Assembly (NCBI GenBank): GCA_001692895.1 | Contig: KV748207.1 | Coordinates: 682,001-746,000 of the forward strand | DNA from: Cenococcum geophilum 1.58 | Lineage: Eukaryota > Ascomycota > Dothideomycetes > Gloniales > Gloniaceae | Direction: 5' to 3' | Length of the DNA: 64,000 bases | Part shown: piece after piece, positions 12,174-64,000 of the stretch | How positions within the stretch are numbered: position 1 is the stretch's first letter | Layout: every line of letters begins with the position of its first letter | Program-made: the position numbers and the translations under genes | Notes under the pieces: generated by a model | Seen by the model: the letters and a program-made list of their open reading frames with translations, nothing else | Database searches by the model: none | What the model was told of the DNA's origin: nothing

Positions 12174-14687
12174 ATGTATTCTGTCCTGTATTTCCTAACC
12201 TTCGTTGGCACAGCTATAGCTGGTTGCCCGTACATGTCCGGTGAACTTCCGCAGGGCCATGAAAATTTCCGTCGAAGTGAACGTCCTGACAAGCGCCAAA
12301 CCCTGGGTTCGATCGCAGGAACCACCATGGCCACCCAAGACTTCCTCGCTCAGTTTGAACTCAACGACACTAGTGCCTACATAACTACCGACTCTGGTAC
12401 TCCAATTGACGATGCCGTAAGCCTGAAGGCCGGGACCCGTGGACCCACTCTATTAGAGGATTTCATCTTTCGGCAGAAGCTTCAGCGTTTCGATCATGAA
12501 CGCGTAAGTTATTTGCCTCCTTGAGCTCTTATAATTATCTTATAGATAAATCTATCCGCTTTCGGTTTTATTATTACTAACTATTCTGTGCTAGATTCCT
12601 GAACGTCCAGTCCATGCCAGAGGTGCTGGTTAGTCAATCGGAATCTACTTCATCACTACTATTGTTTAACAAAATCTAGGGGCTTACGGAGTCTTTACGA
12701 GTTATGGCAATTTCACAAACATCACAGCGGCTTCATTCCTCTCTCAGGCAGGCAAACAAACACCGATGTTCGTTCGGACGTCCACTGTTATTGGCGAAAG
12801 GGGTAGCGTAGATTCCGCTAGAGACGTGCACGGACTAGCCACTCGGTTCTACACCGACGAGGGAAACTTTGGTAAGTAGTGCTCCCCACGATACTATACA
12901 GAACAAACGACTGACTAGATGAGGAAGACATTGTTGGCATCAACACTCCAGTATTCTTCATTAACGATGCCATCCTCTTCCCCGATCTCATTCATGCTCT
13001 CAAGTCAAGCCCAGACAGCCAAATCCCACAGGCTGCGACCGCGCATGACTCCGCCTACGACTTCTTCAGCCAAGAACCTAGCGTACTGAACTTGTTGATG
13101 ATGGTCATGGCTGGTTACGGGATTCCGCGATCTTATCGCCACATGGATGGGTGGGGAGTACACACTTACCGGCTTGTCACCAACGAGGGTAATACAAAGT
13201 TGGTCAGATGGAACTGGAAGTCGTTGCAAGGCAAAGCAAGTTTCCTGTGGGAAGAGGCTCAAATCGTGGGTGGCAAGAATTCCGATTTTCATCGCCAGGA
13301 CATGTGGAACGCAATTGAGGCTGGCATGTACCCAGAGTGGGAGGTATGTTCTCTATGGCTCATATCCTTTTCATTTTGCATTGCTGACAATCTTCAGCTC
13401 GGTGTCCAAATCATGAATGAAGAGGACCAGCTGGCCTTTGGCTTTGATCTTCTGGACCCAACCAAATTCGTCCCAGAGGAACTTGTGCCAATTACCCCAC
13501 TCGGGAAGATGACTTTGAACATGAACCCAAAGAATTACTTCGCAGAGACAGAGCAGATTGGGGTAAGGAGGGGGAATCCAAGATAAACACTATGATTTTC
13601 ATACTAAGATGTCTGACAGTTCCAACCGGGGCATATCGTTCGTGGTATCGACTTCACAGATGACCCAGTTCTACAAGGCCGTCTCTACTCCTACTTGGAT
13701 GCTCAACTAAATCGGTATGGAGGACCAAATTTTGAGCAGGCCCCAGTAAACCGACCAAGAGTTCCAATTCATAACAATAATCGTGACGGAAAGGCTCAGG
13801 CCTATATCCCGACCAACATTGCCGCCTACTCACCCAACACTCTCAACTTTGGCTCCCCAATGGAGGCAAATCAATCTGTTGGAAATGGTTTCTTCACTGC
13901 TCCGAACCGTTACGTAACAGGAAGCCTCACTCGTGAACTTTCTCCTACCTTCGCAGACCACTGGAGTCAGCCACGCATGGTTTGGAATTCTCTTTCGCTT
14001 GCAGAACAGCAAATCGCCGTCAACGCACTCCGGTTTGAAGCATCGAAGGTTGTTTCCGTGACAGTCAAGCAGAACTTCATCAACCAGCTTAATCGCATTG
14101 ACCACAGCTTGGCAGCGCGCGTAGCCCAGGTCCTTGTTGATGTGACCGTGCCAACGCCACAGAATACATACTACAACAACAACAAGACGGCTTACATCTC
14201 TATCTTTAACAATTCGTTGCCAACCATCCAGGGTCTCAACTTCGGAATCCTAGCATCTGTCTACTCCAATCAATCTATGGCCCAAGCAGCGAGCCTTAGC
14301 AAGCAATTCGCAAGCCTTGGCCTCTTCGTCAGCGTCGTAGGTGAGGACGTTGCTCCAGGTGTTAACCTCACTTACTCTACTGCCGACGCTATCAACTTTG
14401 ACGGCATCCTTATTACCTCCGGTTCGGAAGGCATCTTCATCAACGGAACGTCTCCCTTGTACCCTCTTAACCGTCCGCTTCAAATTCTGCAAAATGCATA
14501 CTACTTTGGTAAACCAGTGGGTTCAATGGGTAGTGGCAGCAACGCATTGCAGTTCGCCAGAATCGGAGCGACGCCTGGAGTCTACATGACCAACAATTCT
14601 GCTACTCTTTTGTCCAATTTCGAATCTGGCCTGAAACAGTTCAAATTCCTAGACCGATTCCCGCTGGACCCGACCATTAATAACTAA
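12174..14687 (+). CDS. Secreted large-subunit catalase, six exons
   Basis: Exons 12174-12503, 12595-12628, 12680-12871, 12919-13343, 13398-13562 and 13620-14687 join in phase to 737 residues, the usual size of fungal large-subunit catalases. It converts hydrogen peroxide to water and oxygen at a haem. A signal peptide is clear ([16 protein letters not shown], then [11 protein letters not shown]), so it should act outside the cell or in the wall. Distal His-117 lies in PVHARGAG and distal Asn-194 in GINTPVFF. The haem-ligand region is [15 protein letters not shown] with Tyr-407 expected to bind iron. The C-terminal 150 residues form the flavodoxin/DJ-1-like domain of this clade ([19 protein letters not shown]). 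All five introns are 47-91 nt with good branch sites, and no disruption is seen. It resembles catB/cat-3-type enzymes, but the exact orthologue cannot be fixed by eye. Confidence 0.95.
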
Positions 14688-46699: not shown

Positions 46700-49600
46700 A
46701 TGTCTGGTATAAAAGGCACGCTGGAAGCTCAATCGTGTCGACCAAGGCAGTTAAAATCTCGAAATGCCCATACCGCAGTGTCTGAACAAGCTTCCAAGGA
46801 AAATAGTGCAGAGCCAGACCGTACGTCGAATTCCGAAGCCCGGATCGTACAAGCATCTCCAATATCTAACCAGACAAACCCATCCATGGATTACGAGCTG
46901 CGTTGGACCAGATCATCGAATTTGGAGACCGTCTATGAGTCACGCGATATCTCCGGCCCGATTTCAGATATCGTCTTTGTGCACGGCTTGAACGGCCACC
47001 CCCGCGCCTCCTGGTCATGGTGTGGCTTTGATGGAGTAGCCACTACTTTTTGGCCGGCTGCTTTTCTTAGTCGCGACGTTCCTCGCAGCCGTATTTTGAC
47101 GTACGGGTATGATACCGAACGAAAGAATACTTGGCGCAACACTATTGTGGCTACTTTACAATTAGCTGCACAGTTCTTGCTCAGCCACCTAGTTGCTCTA
47201 AGAGGGCACTCTAACTCGGTAAGGATTTGTCCGCTTCCTGCCTCGTTATTCTGTCAACGCTTCATTCTAGCTTCGCTGACTTGTTCGGGGATACTAGGAA
47301 AAGAGAAATATCCTTTTTATTGCCCATAATTTTGGTGGTCTCGTCGTAAAGAAAGCTCTTTCCTTGTCTAAAGGAGACTACCATAATCACGGTATTTACA
47401 GCTCCACAGTAGGCATTATATTTCTCGGAGCCACCGTTCTCAGAATTCCTGATGGCGAGACTGGCGCTGGCGGAACTTCTCATGGCGCTGAAGACCACCA
47501 CATTGAAAGCAACATGTTAGTGCAGAAAAAGCGCGATTCATTGCTTCAGCGCATCAACTATCTGCTCGAAGAAGTTCAGAGCGATTTCAGACGCTTGATA
47601 TCTGAGAAAGGGCACGGAATGAACGTCGCATATTTTTATGAAGAACTGCGCCTCCCGGAAATCATGAAGGTAGGACCACCAAGCAAGGATTTCGCAAGGA
47701 TTTTCTAATATAACACAGATTCAGGCTGATTCTTGGATGATTGAGGATGAGTTCCCACGCTTGCCGCTCCGTAAAACCTGCTCAGTATGTCAGGCTAGTA
47801 TTTTTGTGGAGACTCTGGTGCTAAAATAAAACAATTAAGGAACTCGTCAAATTCGCGAGCCCCAACGACGTTGCATACAAGCGCATACTTGGTGAAATTA
47901 AAAAAATGATTCAACCTCTCAGCTTATTAGCCCTGGAATTAAGACGAGAAGATAGAGGTTAGCAGCAAAGATTTGGTAACCCCTATCCGTAATATTAATC
48001 TACTAGGCAGAGTTCCTTGAATCTTTGTCATTTCCAGAAATGGAGGAAGCTGTCAAAGTAGACGATCTGGTAGCCGACGGTACATGTGTCTGGCTTTCTG
48101 AACATCCAAAATATAGACAATGGCTTACTCAATCCGGTTCCACACCTCTCTGGATCAAAGGCAAACCAGGTTCTGGAAAAACCACGCTCAAAACCTATTT
48201 GGTCCGTGAATTCCAACAGAAAACCCCACGGCATTACAAACCGGTCTTAGTAGCTACTTTTCTCTTCCATAGTGGTGGTCACTTCATGCGACGTAGTGCG
48301 TCAGGCCTTTTTCAGTCACTTCTATACCAGGTTTTTCCTCAAGTCCCCGCGTCTCTGGTCAATGTCACGAATACTTTTAACGCAAAATGCGAGGTGGTTG
48401 GTAGGCCAGGTAAAGACTGGCATTGGAATCCTTCTGAGATAGAGGATCTTCTTGAGTACTCACTGGTGCATGCATCCCGACATTTCGAGTTGATTATCCT
48501 CATTGATGCTTTGGATGAATGCGAGGAGCATGCGCGTATTGATGTGGTCGACTATTGGCAACGCTTCCCATCCACGACTATCAAAGTTTGCATTTTCTCT
48601 CGGCAAGTGCGTTTGCCTCCTCAAGCGAAAGAAGTGGAAATTTTCGTGGACTACGAAAATCGTAGGGATATAGCCAATTATGTGCGTCACAAGGTCTATC
48701 ACGATACTTCTGACCAGAAGCTCGCAACTATGATTACTGATGCGGTCATTGAAAAAGCCGAAGGCGGATTTCTCTGGGCAAGTCTCGTGATCTCGCTCAT
48801 CTGCAGCGAGAGAGGCTTCCAGGATCTAGAGGGACTGATCCACGCTATACCTAAAGATCTAGATGATTTATACGACCATATTCTTTGGAAAATCGCAGAA
48901 AATGACCAATCACTCTTGGCTCGTCAAATAATACGATGGGTTGCTTGTGCTGCGAGGCCGCTTTCACTTAACGAACTTCAACACGCGTTGTCTGTTAGAA
49001 CAGGTCTAGTTCGAAACGATCTTTATACTCTCGACAAAACCGAGACAACGCGCCGCACCCTGGAAAGCATGTGCTATGGCCTAGTGGTAGTGAGAAGCAT
49101 TGAGCAAACTGTTTTGGCAGATGGGCGGAAACCCCGCGTGGAACGTCGCAACGTCGTTCGTCTCGTCCATCTTACCGTAAAAGAATTCTTATTCCGAAGT
49201 GGACTGACGGCCCTCGATCCTGATTCCTCCTCGATAAATGATGCTGTTGGGCATTGCCATTCTAATCTCGCATTAACTTGCATCTTATACTTCAGCTCGG
49301 TGGACTCTGTCAGTTCGGAAAAAGAAGCCTCAGTCCTAGCGTTGAGATACCCTTTTTTGCACTATGCTGTTGAATTCTGGATACATCATGCACAATTCTC
49401 AGAGAGCAAAGGTGTTTCCCAATTGAACCTCTTGCATTCTTTTCATTGGCCGTCACACCAATCTTTGCAGCACTGGACCTATTTTCGCCGAAAACTGTAC
49501 GACAACTCTGACAACTCAGTAACACTGAAAACTTCTTTTTTGCACCTAGCCTCCGAGTACGGCCTGCTCAAAATGGCTAATGCTCTTTTTGAGGCCGATG

Positions 49601-51676
49601 CTGCCATTAACCTCCCTAACCTGAGGAATGACCAAGGTCGAACACCATTATCTCTAGCAGCCTCGGAAGGTCACGAAAACTTGGTAAAGCTTTTACTCCG
49701 ACAAGGCGCGAGCGCAAACTCCAAGGATTTCCCGCTAGGAACGTCTCCACTGATGTGGGCAGCCAAGCGTGGTCACAAAGCCGTAGTTAGACTGCTCCTG
49801 GACTCCGGTGCCGACACGAATTATAAAGGGAGTCAGTCAGCACTTTCATTAGCTGCTGCCGGAGGCCATCTATCTATCGCCGAGTTGCTCCTTCACGCAG
49901 GCGCGGAGCCGAACATTAGGGATTCCCTAGGGTATTCGCCTCTGTCTTGGGCTGCGGCGGCAGGAAATAGAACGATGATCGAGTTTCTTATTAGGCACGG
50001 TGCTAATCCTGCATCAATGAATACTCTGCGAGGCCTATCGCCATTACATATCGCTGCTGCTCATGGACACGGAGCTGTGGTATCAGTATTACTAAGAGGC
50101 GGTGTCGATCCTAACATGAAAGACTCTTGTCTTGGCTGGGCGCCTCTGTCTCATGCTATCTGGCACAGGCACATTCCAGTTGTAAAAATCCTCATTGCCC
50201 GGGGAGCTCTTATCTCTATTTCTGACCAAGGTATTACCCCATGGGTTGGTCGAGTTATGAGAGGCTTGACTGCTGTGATTGATTATGACTCGAAGGCTGG
50301 CTATAGGGCCTGCCCAGGCAACAATAGTTCCGCTTCTTCCCCAGACGGTGGTAATATTAATAACGCTTCACCCGAAACTAAACCCTCATCTACGGCTCGA
50401 AGGCGCGCTCGAAAAGAGAAAGAATCATCTGATGAGGAGCAAGAGGACAGACCAAACAAACGTCGGCGCCTTGATCCAAGAAAAGACCCAGATGCGAAGA
50501 AATCTAAGCTCGGACTAGCATGCCCTTTTTACAAATTTGATCCTGCAAAACATGGCATGACAAGGACATGCACTGACCCAAAAGGGTATCCAGGCTGCCA
50601 TCGAATCAAGTAAGTAATTGGTACTTAACGTTATTACTCCCCACTCCCATTTTCTACTCAGCCTGAGGAAAAACTTACGGAAGCTGATTTCGTGTAGAGA
50701 GCACTTGAACCGGAAGCACGCTCTCCCTATACACTGCCCGAGATGTAGGCATGAATTTAAGGATGACGCTGAGTTGAAGGCCCATCACACTGCGATCACT
50801 GCCTGCGATGCGCGACTAGATGTACGAGATTACTCCCTTGGCTATGATGCTGAACAAGAAAAGAAATTAAGAGGGCTTAACCTACGACGATTTCAATCCC
50901 AGGAAGACTTTTGGCGAGAGATTTACCGAACGTGTTTCCCGGAAGTGGAAGAGCCTAATATTCCTTCCCCATGTAAGAGAGAATCATGTATATGAGTGTC
51001 ATTGAGTGCTAACTATTTGGCAGTCGTCGACCAGGAGGGCCAGACCTTTGAGCAGTACGATGAATATACATGCCGCGAACGCGCGCAAAACGAGCAGTTA
51101 AGGTCTGAAATCGAACGTGTGCTCGTTGACAATTCGCTCTCTCGGCCAGACCAAATCACCGAGATACTCAACATCGTAAGCACCCAGCAACCAAGTATAC
51201 GGGAACAATACCTACAGAGCCAAGGACCAAGAGAGCCATTATATCCTGCACCGCTTGGCCGTGCTGCCGAGCCTGAAGCTCCTCGGCCCGAAGGAGGTAG
51301 CCCGATAAATTGTAATATGCCCACGTCCAGGGAACAAGCGCCCTTAATGGAAATGTTTGGGCCTGGTTTTTTCGGTACTGAAACTCATCCATTTCCATAT
51401 GATCGCCAAATGACCGATTCTGGGTTTGATTCCACTTCTCGACATACCCCTACAACTGCTGTGCACGAGCAACACAATCTGGGAATCGGTGAACACCAAC
51501 GTCAAAATTCTGCGCACGGATACGATGCATCTGATATTTCGTATGTAGGACACCAACCTCAAGTACCGGACCACCCCGAACAGATCAATCCACCCCTTTG
51601 GACCAGCCCAGAACCTGCAGAGTCAGACACCCTCCTCGATGAGTATATCAACCCTGCGCTTGATTATCTTGAATAA
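46700..51676 (+). CDS. NLR: degenerate alpha/beta hydrolase, NACHT, ankyrin repeats and C2H2-type domain
   Basis: Exons 46700-47218, 47298-47669, 47725-47784, 47840-47957, 48011-50609, 50698-50972 and 51024-51676 join in phase to 1531 residues; every intron has GT-AG ends and is 51-88 nt. Residues about 85-300 are a SesB-like alpha/beta-hydrolase region (DIVFVHGLNG), but the nucleophile motif reads AHNFGG, with Asn-184 where Ser is expected. NACHT has the P-loop GKPGSGKT (407-414) and Walker B IILIDALDE (about 516-524). Seven or so ankyrin repeats span about 864-1106 (GRTPLSLAASEGHENLVKLL). A basic, acidic, basic stretch (about 1151-1189, KRRRLDP) looks like a bipartite nuclear signal. Residues about 1191-1305 are the fungal C2H2-type module (LACPFYKF, CHRIKEHLNRKHALPIHCPRC), followed by an acidic, Pro-rich tail. 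Fungal NLRs act as intracellular sensors; the zinc-finger extension is unusual. Confidence 0.85.
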
Positions 51677-53876: not shown

Positions 53877-56396
53877 TCATCCGCGCCTCCTTCCCGAGAA
53901 AACCCTTCTAGAAAACGAGATCACAGAATTATTTGAATTCGAACTCCCGAGCGACGAGAAACCGCTGTCCGATCTGGCAAGAGAGGGTCCATGGAGCAGA
54001 TGGCCATACCGCCGTCGCTCTTGGGGTGACAATTGTGACATATCCACATAGGTGTGGCGGGAGAGAAGGAACCTGACAAAGGTTATGCGTTGTTCCGTTG
54101 GCGTTTTGCTTACTGCTAGGTGCAAAGGGGTTCTCTTTCGCATCGAGAAATCTCGTGCCTCGATGTCTGCTCCATGGTCGAGGAGAATTTCTGCAGGCTC
54201 AAGCGACGCATTCTCCGCGGCGAAATGGAGAGCTGTCTTTCCGGCCGGACATCTGCTATTCGGGTCTATCCGTGCCCCTTCGTTTTGGAAGAACAACACC
54301 CTCAAGACGTCTACGGCTGAGCTGTGAACCGCATAATGTAGCACACCCCATCCACTGTTATCCTTGACCGATACGTCTGCACCTTTGCGGAGGAGAATGC
54401 TGACCGTGGTTGACTGGTTTGCCTCACTTGCTTTCAGAAGAGGTGTTGCTCCATCCCTATTTCGACATTCGATTGTGGCATCAAGGCTGATTAGCAGCTC
54501 GATCATTTCAGTGCTACCTCGAGAAGCGGCCTGGTGGAGAGCGGTAGATTGGCCTGGTGTTTTTGCGTTCACTTCTGCTCCTCGATCAACAAGCCTTCGG
54601 ACTGCGATCTCGAATTCAACCTCGATGGCATGCATCAAAGGCGTCCGATCTTTAGTACATCTTAGATGGATGTCAGGGTTTAGGTCTAAGACGGCCTGGA
54701 TGCGTGGCTCATCACGAGATCGGATTGCGGATATAAGTGGTGTCCTTCCGTTACTGTCTTTCGCGTTGACATCGATTATTATTTCAGCCTGAGATGGCTG
54801 AGGCGCTTCGATCTGTGGTGGCACCACTGGAGATGTTGGCGAGGGATGGGATCCTGAAGTAGTGAGGCTTTGGAAAAATTCAGCGAGACCGGTACGTCTT
54901 TGAGCTTGATATACGTGTACGAGAAGTTGGCAGGAAACTAGGCTTTGGGGATCACTGGGAGCCGATAAAGTTATCTTATTAAAAGCAGATCGCGCCAATT
55001 TTTCGGCACGCTGCAGATCGGCGGTGTTGTCATTGCTTAGGTACCTCTTGTGATAGATCTCAGCTAGTAGCTGATGTTGTTTGGCTTGGACTAAGAGGAC
55101 TGCCTGATCTTCCTCATTCGTAGGATCCGATCCGCTATTCGCAAGTTCCAGCATAATGGATAGAGCTTGTTCAAGGCTATGTTGTTTAATATATATTTCG
55201 GCCAGGAACTGTTGCATGTGCACTCGATTATCGAAAGGGACACCGTAACTAGCCTCACGCTCCTCAAGATGGGTAATGGCCTCTATCTGGTTCGTTTCAG
55301 CTCGCTGGAAATTTCCCTCCTTGAATTCCTTTTGGGCTTTCATTTGAAATGTTTCGATTAGACTAATGAGCATTGGCAGCGGGGTTTTAAGTGATAAGCC
55401 GCGAACATCAGGGTGGAGCGATTCATTAACTGCTGTTGTAGTAGAAGGACGCCTACCAGCTTCGTCACCTGAAAGCTCCTGATCACTCTCGCTGTCCTCA
55501 TCGCTGCTGCTATCATGCTCGAACATAAGATCGGAGCTGTCCGAGTGTCTAACTCGCCGAATAGACTCCGCGTCAGGTTCCCAGGTGGAATATTCCGAAC
55601 GAACACTCTTCGCTACATGGAGCGTCTGTCGGAGGGTCCGTATGCCCGTTAAATCTAACTCCGGGTCATGGTTGGTGAGAGTTGTATCAACATTAGACTC
55701 TATACTTGTACACCCATTGCTCGGTTGTGCATGAGAGCTGTGGTTCCTTTGAGATAGCAAAGTAAGATGTGAGCCAGCGCGACCCATAGCTCTCTCCAAG
55801 CGGCTAAGGCGAGCCAACAACTCGTCATGATGCATATCCATTTGATTCCGGGTTCGGAAGTGTTCGAAACTATAAACCAAATAGGATCAGCATACCGCTA
55901 GTATTAAGTAATGAGTTAAAACGACTACTTACCATTGAAGGAGTTGTAGAGAGGTGCGTAAAGTTTGCAGGTGAGTATCAAGGCTCTGTCCATTTTCTTG
56001 TATTTTCCGACTGGTGCAAACGGTATATCGTAGGGATTCCCGCGCTCTGGAGGCCAGGCTCAGAGACTCTTCTCCCGTTAATCTCTGGATTTCGCGGCCC
56101 ATGTCAAGCAGAATGCGACGGCAGGCATCTAGTGACACACGAATACTAGCTTCAACCCGCGCTTCGTCCTTCATGGACGGTTGTGAGTTTGCTTCAGTTT
56201 CTCTGCGCCGAAGAACCAGCTCCACGTTCTGGATGACATCGTGCAGCCGCTTGATCTTCTTGTAGGTGCTGCGTGCTTCAATACTCGCTTTGCTGACGCT
56301 TCTGAAGAATCTGTAAACTTCTATGGACAGTTGTACTACCTGCACGGCCGAAGTGAAAGTTTGAAGTTCTGTGGCCATGTTATTGTTCAGTCCCAT
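53877..56396 (-). CDS. Helo-like N-terminal, TPR-like and ankyrin protein without an NTPase
   Basis: Exons 55933-56396 and 53877-55869 join over a 63-nt intron (GTAAGT donor, TATAG acceptor) to 818 residues. Residues 1-155 form an all-helical region (MATELQTFTSAVQVVQLSIEV) like the Helo-like/NACHT-associated N-terminal domains of fungal STAND proteins. An acidic, Ser-rich linker follows (HDSSSDEDSESDQELSGDE). Residues about 320-470 look like divergent TPR helices (AQKEFKEGNFQRAETNQIEA). About seven ankyrin repeats occupy 524-780 (DSNGRTPLISAIRSRDEPRI). The tail is Ser/Asn/Arg-rich. No P-loop or Walker B is present, and no gap in the frame suggests one was lost recently. A role as a truncated NLR, partner or regulator is inference. 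The start at 56396 was chosen; a second Met lies six codons on (56378). Confidence 0.8.
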
Positions 56397-61490: not shown

Positions 61491-62886
61491 GCCTTTTCGC
61501 GGTATTCCTGTAGAGAAGGGTCCATATAGTTTACTTATAGTAGTTTATTAATAAGGTCGAATTCCATAGGGTTAATAGGACATATCTTAGCGCTTAGAGA
61601 TTTAGTACTTAGTTCTTCTTATATTTGGGGGTTAAGGTACTCTGGTTATAGTAGCGTCTGGGTTTATAATAAGATCTTTACGGCTATCTAGTTATTTAGG
61701 TCCTGTTTACGTCTTATAAAAGCGTTTGCATAGTTAGTGGCGCCTAGCCTATATATAATTAGGAAGTTAAACTAAGATAGAATATCTACCTAGCGCGCTT
61801 GCCGGGCCGTAAGGGCCTTAGTTATTATAAAGTATTCTAGGGCCTTATAATCTAAAACTACCTAAATAGGCTTAGGGGTCCCTTCTAGCTATACTTACTA
61901 GTGCTAAAAGCTAGAGATAATAGCTAACATTTCTTTATTATGGATTGGGTAGTTTAGCTTAGCATCTATTATAGTCTTTAAGTAGTAAGCAATAAGGTGC
62001 TATTCTCCGTCTACTTCTAGGAATAAACGCTAGTAATAACACTATCTAAGGTATCCGTTTCTAGTATTAAGGGCCATTCTAGGTTAAAGTGGGCGAGTAA
62101 GGGAGCGGAGACTAGTCGTTTCTTAAGCTTATTAAGGGCCTGCTTATATACGGTGTTAAAGTAAAAGGGCCGGTCCTTTATAGTAAGGCGGCTAAGGGGC
62201 TAAGTAATCCTACTATAGTTTTTAATAAAGCGTTAGTAGAAGTTACAAAAGCCTAAGAATAACTGTATCCCTTTTATAGTCTATAGTAGTTCCTATTAAT
62301 TAATTACGGCCGTCTTTTCTAGGTTAGCCTCGATTTTATCTATACTAATAATAAACCTTAGATACTTTATACGCTTTATACTAAATTCTAACTTCTTAAT
62401 ATCGGCCTGGAGGCTAGCCTTATAGAGTTGTTATAGGACCTTATAGACGTGCTCCTTGTATTTTAACTCGTTCTTAAAGTAAATTATAATATTATCTAGG
62501 TAGGCCGTATAGAAGTTATTAAGGTAGTTAAAGAGTATATTATTTATATATTATTAGTACGTAGCCGGTCCGTTAGTTAGTTTAAAAGGAAGTACTTTAT
62601 ATTTATATAATCTATATTAAGTCTAAAATGTAGTAAGATCTATAAATCTAGGGTTTATTTTAATTTAGTAGAAAGCCTAACGGATATTAAGCTTTATAAA
62701 TACCTTAGCTTTATTTATTTGGGCCAGTGTCTTATTAAGTAGGGGTAGCGGATAACGGTCTTTGCGGGTTATATTATTAAGCTTATAGTAGTTAATATAG
62801 AAATAAAGTCCTCTATTTAGCTTTTTTATAAAGAGAATAGGGGAGGTAAAAGGGACCTAGCTAGGCTTAATAAACCCCTTTACTAG
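61491..62886 (-). mobile_element. Gypsy pol fragment of the A family
   Basis: This stretch aligns by eye, in the same orientation, with the reverse transcriptase/RNase H part of element A at about 18340-19740 (shared blocks such as gggggttaaggtactct and gtattctagggccttataat). It has no LTR of its own in view and stops abruptly where a Copia-like LTR begins at 62887. It is fossil, RIP-affected and broken at many points. It is a second A-type copy outside the nest. Confidence 0.75.
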
Positions 62887-64000
62887 TGTCGGTATCACTT
62901 CCGGTAATACGTAATGCTATTGTAATAGTATAGGGTAGTAACTGATTTTAATTAATGCTTATTAATTCTCCTATTCTATAGGTGGAATTTGGTGGATTTC
63001 CTAAGCTCGCTTAGCTTATATAACTAACCTAATTAGTTACAGACAACCTCGTTTAGACACTAGGAGTATTTAGTTTTTAATAGTGCTTAAGCACGCCTCC
63101 TGCTAAATTCTGTTAAGTTCTGCCATATTCCACTAAATTCCATTAAGTTCTACTAAATTCCGCTATATTCCATTAAATTCCATTAAGTTCTACTAAATTC
63201 TGCTATATTCCACTTAGATTCTACCAAATTCTGCTAAGTAGTTAAAGTAACTAATCACAATTTTCCATCCCCGGGATGGAAAGTCGCTATTAGCTCGCTT
63301 AGTACTAGCGCCTTAGCGGCTAGCTTAATATCTTCGCACACTTTATTCCTACTTTAACGTCTTCTCTCTCTACCCACTTGGTAACCTATAGCTTAATTAT
63401 ATTTATATTAATTAGGTCCTTTAACGCCTGGTAAGGCTTTAATTTTATTATAGCGTCTATAGGGTTACTACCTCCATTAATCTATTTAATCTCTACTATT
63501 TCTCTTCTCTTATACAATTATTGTAAACACATTAGGTTAACTATAAGTTATTTCTCTTATATTATCTTAAGTTTAACTAGGCAGTTATATAGAGATTTTA
63601 AATCGGTATAAAGGGTAAGCGGTAGTTGTTTAAGTTATAGGATCTTCTTAATAGTTGCTTTAATTACAGCTCCGGTGTTAAATCCATAGGCTATATTATA
63701 TAGTTTAGATATTAAGACACTTTATATAACTCGCTTATACTTAATAGATAACTAATAGAGGATATTAGCCCTATTATCCTTATCCGTAAGTATAATAATA
63801 AAGCCAATCTAAGAGGAGAGGTTGTAGTTATTAGCAAAGGATAAGTCCGTAAATATTATTAGTTTAAGAGTGCTTATATTAAGTTATACAAAATAAAGTC
63901 CTTAGGAGGGATTATTAATTTGCTATTACAGCCGCTTATTAAGCTGCTTTATATATTCTTCCTTTAGGTTAATAACTTATGCCGTAAAGGAGAGGTTAAA
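62887..64000 (-). mobile_element. Copia-like LTR element, fossil, running off the window
   Basis: A probable 3' LTR spans 62887-63259 (starts TGTCGGTATC, ends CTAATCACA) and contains ctaaattccattaagttc-type short tandem repeats. A purine-rich tract on the minus strand (63260-63280) follows. From about 63330 to the edge, degraded RNase H/reverse-transcriptase C-terminal sequence of a Ty1/Copia-like pol is recognisable on the minus strand. It is inserted into the Gypsy fragment on its left. The other end and the TSD lie outside the window; it has many breaks. Confidence 0.65.

Follow-up and report, generated by a model that had tools for sequence, protein, structure and literature searches.

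A predicted NACHT-ankyrin receptor of Cenococcum geophilum, very probably fused to the C-terminal half of a zinc-finger protein

The DNA analyzed was a 64,000-nucleotide stretch of Cenococcum geophilum 1.58 (assembly GCA_001692895.1, contig KV748207.1, positions 682,001 to 746,000 of the forward strand). The whole stretch is termed "the window", and position 1 is its first letter. The subject is a single gene (hereafter the "receptor gene") that encodes a predicted NOD-like receptor (NLR). From the N- to the C-terminus, the encoded protein features a degenerate SesB-like alpha/beta hydrolase, a NACHT domain, a winged helix, seven ankyrin repeats, a basic stretch, a two-site zinc module, and an acidic tail. 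With high confidence, it is regarded as a fusion between a receptor and the C-terminal half of a separate zinc-finger gene. The features of the gene are as follows (NLS, nuclear localization signal):

46700..51676, + strand: whole gene, 7 exons, 1531 residues; model made by eye from the sequence only
46700-47218, 47298-47669, 47725-47784, 47840-47957, 48011-50609, 50698-50972, 51024-51676, + strand: exons, from the reading frame and splice sites
46880..47957, + strand: SesB-like alpha/beta hydrolase, exons 1-4, residues ~61-356; DUF676 match and homology to the hydrolase of locus L034
48011..49530, + strand: NACHT (NPHP3_N), winged helix (GPIID_WHD), and pre-repeat region; profile matches
49531..50226, + strand: 7 ankyrin repeats, residues ~864-1095; Ank_2, E=1.7e-70
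50227..50245, + strand: predicted fusion boundary, residues 1096-1102; aborted start of an eighth ankyrin repeat (QGITPW) joined to a helix of the zinc-finger family
50245..50514, + strand: conserved helix, Ser/Gly linker, and PNKRRR basic NLS-like stretch (putative, by reading); linker profile
50515..50972, + strand: zinc module, residues 1192-1314 (intron 50610-50697 inside); CCHH and CCHC ligands, then EQEKKLR and a W-IYRxxFP region
50610..50697, + strand: intron 5, phase 2; same codon and phase in 10/14 separate copies of the module (donor and acceptor pattern)
50973..51023, + strand: intron 6, phase 1; donor pattern alone, at the same site in 12/14 copies, including L028
51024..51676, + strand: coil-like region and acidic, hydrophobic-rich tail; aligned with L019 to ca. 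residue 1389

The gene had been noted in a first-pass annotation of the window, and its reality was confirmed. All of its introns have GT-AG ends, and the exons, from the ATG at 46700 to the end at 51676, join into one 1531-residue frame whose only stop is terminal. The annotation had claimed that a single open frame runs from the ankyrin repeats through a KRRR-rich stretch into the zinc module, and that the parts of this module are joined by two clean, in-phase introns. Both claims held. No stop interrupts exon 5, which covers the NACHT domain and ankyrin repeats and continues past the KRRR stretch into the first residues of the zinc module. Introns 5 (88 nt) and 6 (51 nt) are bounded by GT-AG, preserve the frame, and lie at homologous sites in separate zinc-finger genes. 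The NLS-like character assigned to the KRRR stretch likewise found agreement, as a basic stretch is common in the separate zinc-finger family (NLS-like by reading); the stretch would thus have come along with the module. The description of the protein as a NACHT-ankyrin receptor was retained and extended, the N-terminus being in addition a degenerate SesB-like hydrolase. When the codon usage of the last two exons was compared with that of the rest of the gene, the predicted frame scored best (0.102 vs. -0.127 and -0.344). An acceptor at 48006 for intron 4 was ruled out because it breaks the frame, which is restored by the acceptor at 48010. An alternative, in-frame 3' splice site is present at 50661; its use (exonic 50661-50697) would insert a basic stretch within the first zinc site and may give rise to a second isoform.

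The same DNA could be read as two genes, i.e. a NACHT-ankyrin receptor followed by a neighboring zinc-finger gene that has an internal start. The Met at residue 1106 could begin a zinc-finger protein of ~426 residues, and elsewhere the module occurs without a joined NACHT domain. However, the 2.6-kb exon 5 has no separating stop or intron, no stop closes the ankyrin array, and ~127 codons are open from there to intron 5 (random expectation ~0.2% by simple arithmetic). The long N-terminal regions of several separate copies are also missing here. A pair of genes is therefore considered highly improbable.

A search of the genome for the zinc module gave 16 matches; two are the receptor gene itself, and the other 14 are separate copies (L018-L031). 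A segment of 9.9 kb was taken around each of these copies, of which ca. 7 to 8 kb lay upstream. A tblastn search with the full protein (E up to 1) returned a NACHT or hydrolase match in the ca. 7 kb upstream of 0/14 separate copies; a weak ankyrin match in L026 is on the opposite strand. Several copies (e.g. L018, L022, L026, L029, and L030) were listed with long open N-terminal regions at the place where the fused gene has its receptor domains. Most of the separate copies examined share the helix and linker, the basic stretch, the zinc module, both introns, and the acidic tail. The receptor gene thus combines the two marks of an integrated domain: an extra domain in frame on a complete NLR, and separate homologues (14) in the host genome. 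It had been supposed that the module normally occurs in separate fungal zinc-finger proteins, and these 14 places, together with a relative on a probably fungal contig (L035), bore this out.

L035 (243-3599) is a 1118-residue frame of the zinc-finger family, with a second Cys/His-rich stretch discerned by eye. Its contig is filed under a bacterial Thalassovita metagenome-assembled genome, but it is probably a fungal contaminant. It was the one relative among 23 stretches from a scan of prokaryote genomes. Inspection by eye found no NACHT domain in L035. Its homologous module, which lacks the intron, was modeled with AlphaFold2; the confidence was low (predicted local distance difference test (pLDDT), 48.7), and the model was set aside. 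A scan of viral contigs gave 42 pattern-matching stretches, none of which is a relative. In the C. geophilum genome, L021 and L028 are closely similar by eye; L028 contains several stops and is the same place as L014.

Beyond the copies counted above, intron 5 was seen by eye in L031. It is absent from L018, and L028 and L030 gave no clear call. The donor of intron 6 went unmatched in L029 and L030. Because both introns lie at homologous sites in most of the separate copies, the joint appears to have been made at the DNA level and not via a spliced copy. By this comparison, introns 5 and 6 are real in the sense of being kept by other genes.

To locate the boundary, a linker profile was built from 10/14 separate copies (L020, L021, L028, and L031 were dropped) without the receptor gene. 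Residues 1102-1190 scored 40.4 bits, whereas the best of 999 shuffles scored 11.0. Scores were negative for residues 980-1040 and 1040-1101, and residues 1102-1130 alone reached 7.7 bits. Against shuffles, the helix part alone gave 4.8 bits vs. 4.1 for the best of 999 (rank 1 of 1000); this margin is narrow, and the boundary therefore rests on the profile of the whole linker. The tblastn match to L019 begins at residue 1102; the blastp alignment to L019 alone begins only at residue 1120. In an AlphaFold2 model from one sequence (window positions 49543-50607), the ankyrin solenoid is confident to ca. residue 1092, and pLDDT is <50 from residue 1093. The profile, the tblastn start, and the drop in pLDDT together place the joint at ~1096-1102, within a would-be eighth ankyrin repeat. 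As delimited by homology, the captured part is everything from the helix (ca. residue 1102) through the stop codon, and so extends beyond the finger alone.

The receptor half has the features of a fungal NLR. The NACHT domain matches NPHP3_N (E=1.7e-30) and is followed by a winged helix (GPIID_WHD, E=2.2e-8). The motifs GKPGSGKTT and LIDALDE, which are taken to be Walker A and Walker B, are intact. Superstructure-forming repeats, in the form of the ankyrin array, lie C-terminal to these domains. At least 154 matches to NPHP3_N were found in the 177-Mb, 162-contig genome when 150 of the 318 first-look candidates were scored. A search for NLR paralogues, in which 81 of 217 candidates were scored, gave 16 other NLR matches, and the two best-scoring of these (L032 and L033) were read downstream. 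Neither has a match to receptor residues >1138 in the 1.6-2.1 kb past its ankyrin repeats. Unlike these paralogues, the receptor gene adds ~430 residues of zinc-finger protein. Both paralogues are less tidy than the receptor gene, with a stop or frame change inside the repeat array. The repeats of the receptor gene are mutually diverged (mean identity 0.35 vs. 0.69 for L032 and 0.77 for L033); because they differ in this from the two paralogues read, the array may no longer be a fast sensor.

The N-terminal domain is homologous to alpha/beta hydrolases, as is characteristic of SesB-like effectors. Its match to DUF676 (E=0.0016, 18.4 bits) is below the cut-off of 20.3, and it is 33% identical (E=1.9e-23) to the hydrolase that precedes another NACHT gene (L034, motif MHSLGG). 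The nucleophile Ser of the HSxGG motif is absent; the receptor gene reads AHNFGG (Ser to Asn). The role of this Ser in alpha/beta hydrolases is established, and hydrolysis by the usual mechanism is, from the motif, unlikely in this protein. There were 46 matches to the domain (four being the receptor gene itself), from which 12 further copies were fetched; L034 was read in addition. The motif is HSLGG in 9/12 and HGLGG in 3/12 (L037, L045, and L047), so the Ser-less motif of the receptor gene is not unique. Hydrolase domains without this Ser may form a class that recurs across the genome.

In the zinc module, C3, C19, H34, H39, C45, C48, H61, and C68 are invariant in 14/14 rows of an alignment of the fused copy and 13/14 separate copies (the degenerate L028, with its stops, was dropped). 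These eight invariant Cys/His residues suggest one CCHH and one CCHC zinc site. The remaining hallmarks of the family (a W and an LFP motif, and two introns) are also found, although the receptor gene has C in place of the L of LFP. No Pfam family exceeded its cut-off in the fused module; the best match to a finger was 12.6 bits (cut-off 27). The fused copy thus lacks the above-cut-off finger of a classical C2H2 DNA-binding factor. Some of the separate copies fit C2H2 Pfam models better (best 3.1e-6).

Little is known of what fungal NLRs sense. The function favoured for the captured half, tentatively and short of being probable, is that of an integrated nuclear bait or sensor. Onto a SesB-like/NACHT/ankyrin receptor, a DNA rearrangement very probably grafted the C-terminal half of what had been another gene, one for a zinc-finger protein. 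The captured half would then reside on the sensor side of the receptor as an integrated bait, and its own basic stretch would bring the protein into the nucleus. The bait would resemble a cellular zinc-finger family that a non-self partner, or a protein from an invader, would bind. Auto-inhibition would be relieved once the bait is bound or modified, after which nucleotide exchange by the NACHT domain and oligomerization would occur. The hydrolase fold, probably non-catalytic owing to the Ser-to-Asn change, would signal via recruitment and not hydrolysis. Because separate relatives of the captured domain are encoded in the same genome, an L019-like zinc-finger protein is a candidate target. 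A bait would be consistent with the larger amount of change in the module while its ligands are fixed and with the diverged ankyrin array. By analogy, it would also accord with the zinc-finger NLRs of Sordariales and plants, and with the C-terminal place of the module: the finger is at the C-terminal end in 52/57 zinc-finger NLRs of a Sordariales survey (PMC12258605).

The nearest separate copy is L019 (59/120 identical; tree support 94/91). The fused module carries more unique changes than L019 does when compared against 12/12 outgroup copies; p<0.05 was reached in 7/12 of these comparisons, which are not independent. The tree branch of the fused module is 1.75, vs. 0.084 for L019. Several points weigh against the bait. 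Ten of the 11 inner branches of the tree are open. L019 is near the consensus (2/38 deviations), which inflates its contrast with the fused copy. The deviations of the latter (8/41) are equalled or exceeded by L027 (8/38), L029 (9/38), and L031 (15/41), and faster change can equally reflect relaxed constraint. The Met at residue 1106 could yield a separate, short zinc-finger product, and the acidic tail fits an output role equally well.

Such an output role would be a built-in transcriptional one: the oligomer would enter the nucleus via the basic stretch, the zinc module would bind DNA, and the acidic tail would activate genes. The family's C-terminal half is retained from helix to stop with 8/8 ligands, and a hydrolase without the usual Ser would make another output necessary. 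The profile of the family matches the C2H2 fingers of solved, DNA-binding structures (best 2i13 and 1mey, profile positions 39-65; weaker matches, e.g. CTCF, cover positions 21-65). Nevertheless, the fused copy is under every Pfam cut-off for fingers, and DNA binding is putative even for the family. Many separate copies have RSKKR after the fingers, but the fused copy has RGLNLRR; the loss of this KKR patch could weaken DNA binding. The last 50 residues of the fused tail have a net charge of -11 and 12 residues of the WFYLIM type. The tails of the 8 separate copies examined (of 14) are likewise acidic and hydrophobic, with net charges of -4 to -8 and 11 to 14 such residues. A threshold of net <=-8 with >=11 hydrophobics was passed by 16/1000 control 50-mers drawn from residues 1-1190, yet by only 3/8 of the separate tails. 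Direct transcriptional output, the chief rival of the bait, is judged somewhat unlikely. In its fullest form, one polypeptide with a dead hydrolase at its N-terminus would contain an entire immune pathway (sensing, nuclear entry, and gene activation), and this is deemed quite unlikely.

The fusion could instead be non-adaptive, having arisen beside a repeat-rich island mutated by repeat-induced point mutation (RIP). It would be tolerated and drifting, and the receptor would work, if at all, via its standard parts. A 30-kb RIP-like block (16-46 kb, at 2-kb resolution) borders the start of the gene, only 1/15 copies of the module is fused, and change in the module looks accelerated. On the other hand, 8/8 ligands, the open frame, and both introns have survived at 59/120 identity to the nearest copy, which amounts to much divergence without a lesion, and the RIP indices of the receptor gene itself are normal. 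Drift of this kind is considered rather unlikely.

The architecture of the receptor gene has precedents in part. The receptor half resembles the SesB-like/T-NACHT/ankyrin NLRs of fungi (PMC12258605, PMC9815663) in its tripartite order, its ankyrin repeats, and its NACHT domain of the NPHP3_N type, of which the T-NACHT of the survey is the putative equivalent. It differs from them in its zinc-finger half and in a hydrolase motif without Ser. SesB-like domains are among the commonest N-terminal domains of fungal NLRs (PMC12258605). The Sordariales survey described 57 zinc-finger NLRs, 34 of them with C2H2 fingers, and its authors proposed a sensor role for the fingers (PMC12258605). The receptor gene shares with these NLRs a C-terminal zinc finger. 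In contrast to them, a C2H2-type module follows its ankyrin repeats; only 16 zinc fingers in the survey adjoin canonical repeats, and all are treble clef (PMC12258605). The plant BED-NLRs Yr7, Yr5, Xa1, and Xo1 also have an integrated zinc finger with an NLS near it, and whether that finger is a decoy or has another role is debated (PMC7761493). The plant proteins differ in being NB-ARC-LRR receptors, and the likeness implies no homology. The BED finger is on the N-terminal side of the plant receptors. A fungal parallel to the plant solution of integrated zinc-finger domains is suggested.

The first-pass annotation had likened the layout to plant NLRs with integrated decoys or to a nuclear, DNA-binding output; both readings are weighed above, with the first somewhat ahead. 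It had also stated that it knew of no described fungal NLR class with the NACHT-ankyrin-C2H2 order. An ankyrin-C2H2 order does not appear in the Sordariales survey (PMC12258605), and to this extent the statement stands; it is qualified by the fungal zinc-finger NLRs and putative integrated decoys already reported there. No description of a NACHT-ankyrin-C2H2 order was found in a search of open-licence papers, including passages of PMC12258605, PMC4986451, PMC12881547, PMC9815663, PMC6560777, and PMC7761493. By term count, the main texts of three articles on fungal NLRs and cell death (PMC4986451, PMC12881547, and PMC9815663) do not mention zinc fingers. NLRs with integrated domains are thus known; new is this fungal one with ankyrin repeats followed by a C2H2-type module, an order unlisted in the one survey consulted (PMC12258605). 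Since the fused module is under the Pfam cut-offs, Pfam-based surveys could miss such a fusion, and further examples may be hidden in annotated fungal genomes.

Elsewhere in the window, AT-rich, strongly RIP-like blocks occupy positions 16001-46000 and 62001-64000, with TpA/ApT of 1.6-2.0 and (CpA+TpG)/(ApC+GpT) of 0.26-0.69. The first of these ends near 46 kb (2-kb resolution), just upstream of the receptor gene at 46.7 kb. On the - strand, an open frame at 8419-9762 matches DUF7779 and TPR profiles and by eye resembles part of an NB-ARC/TPR receptor; it is perhaps a second NLR-like gene. Downstream of the receptor gene and on the opposite (-) strand, a 669-residue frame at 53877-55886 contains a weak TPR-like region followed by ankyrin repeats. 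Two open frames on the + strand at 12915-14687 encode a catalase that has the C-terminal domain known from long catalases.

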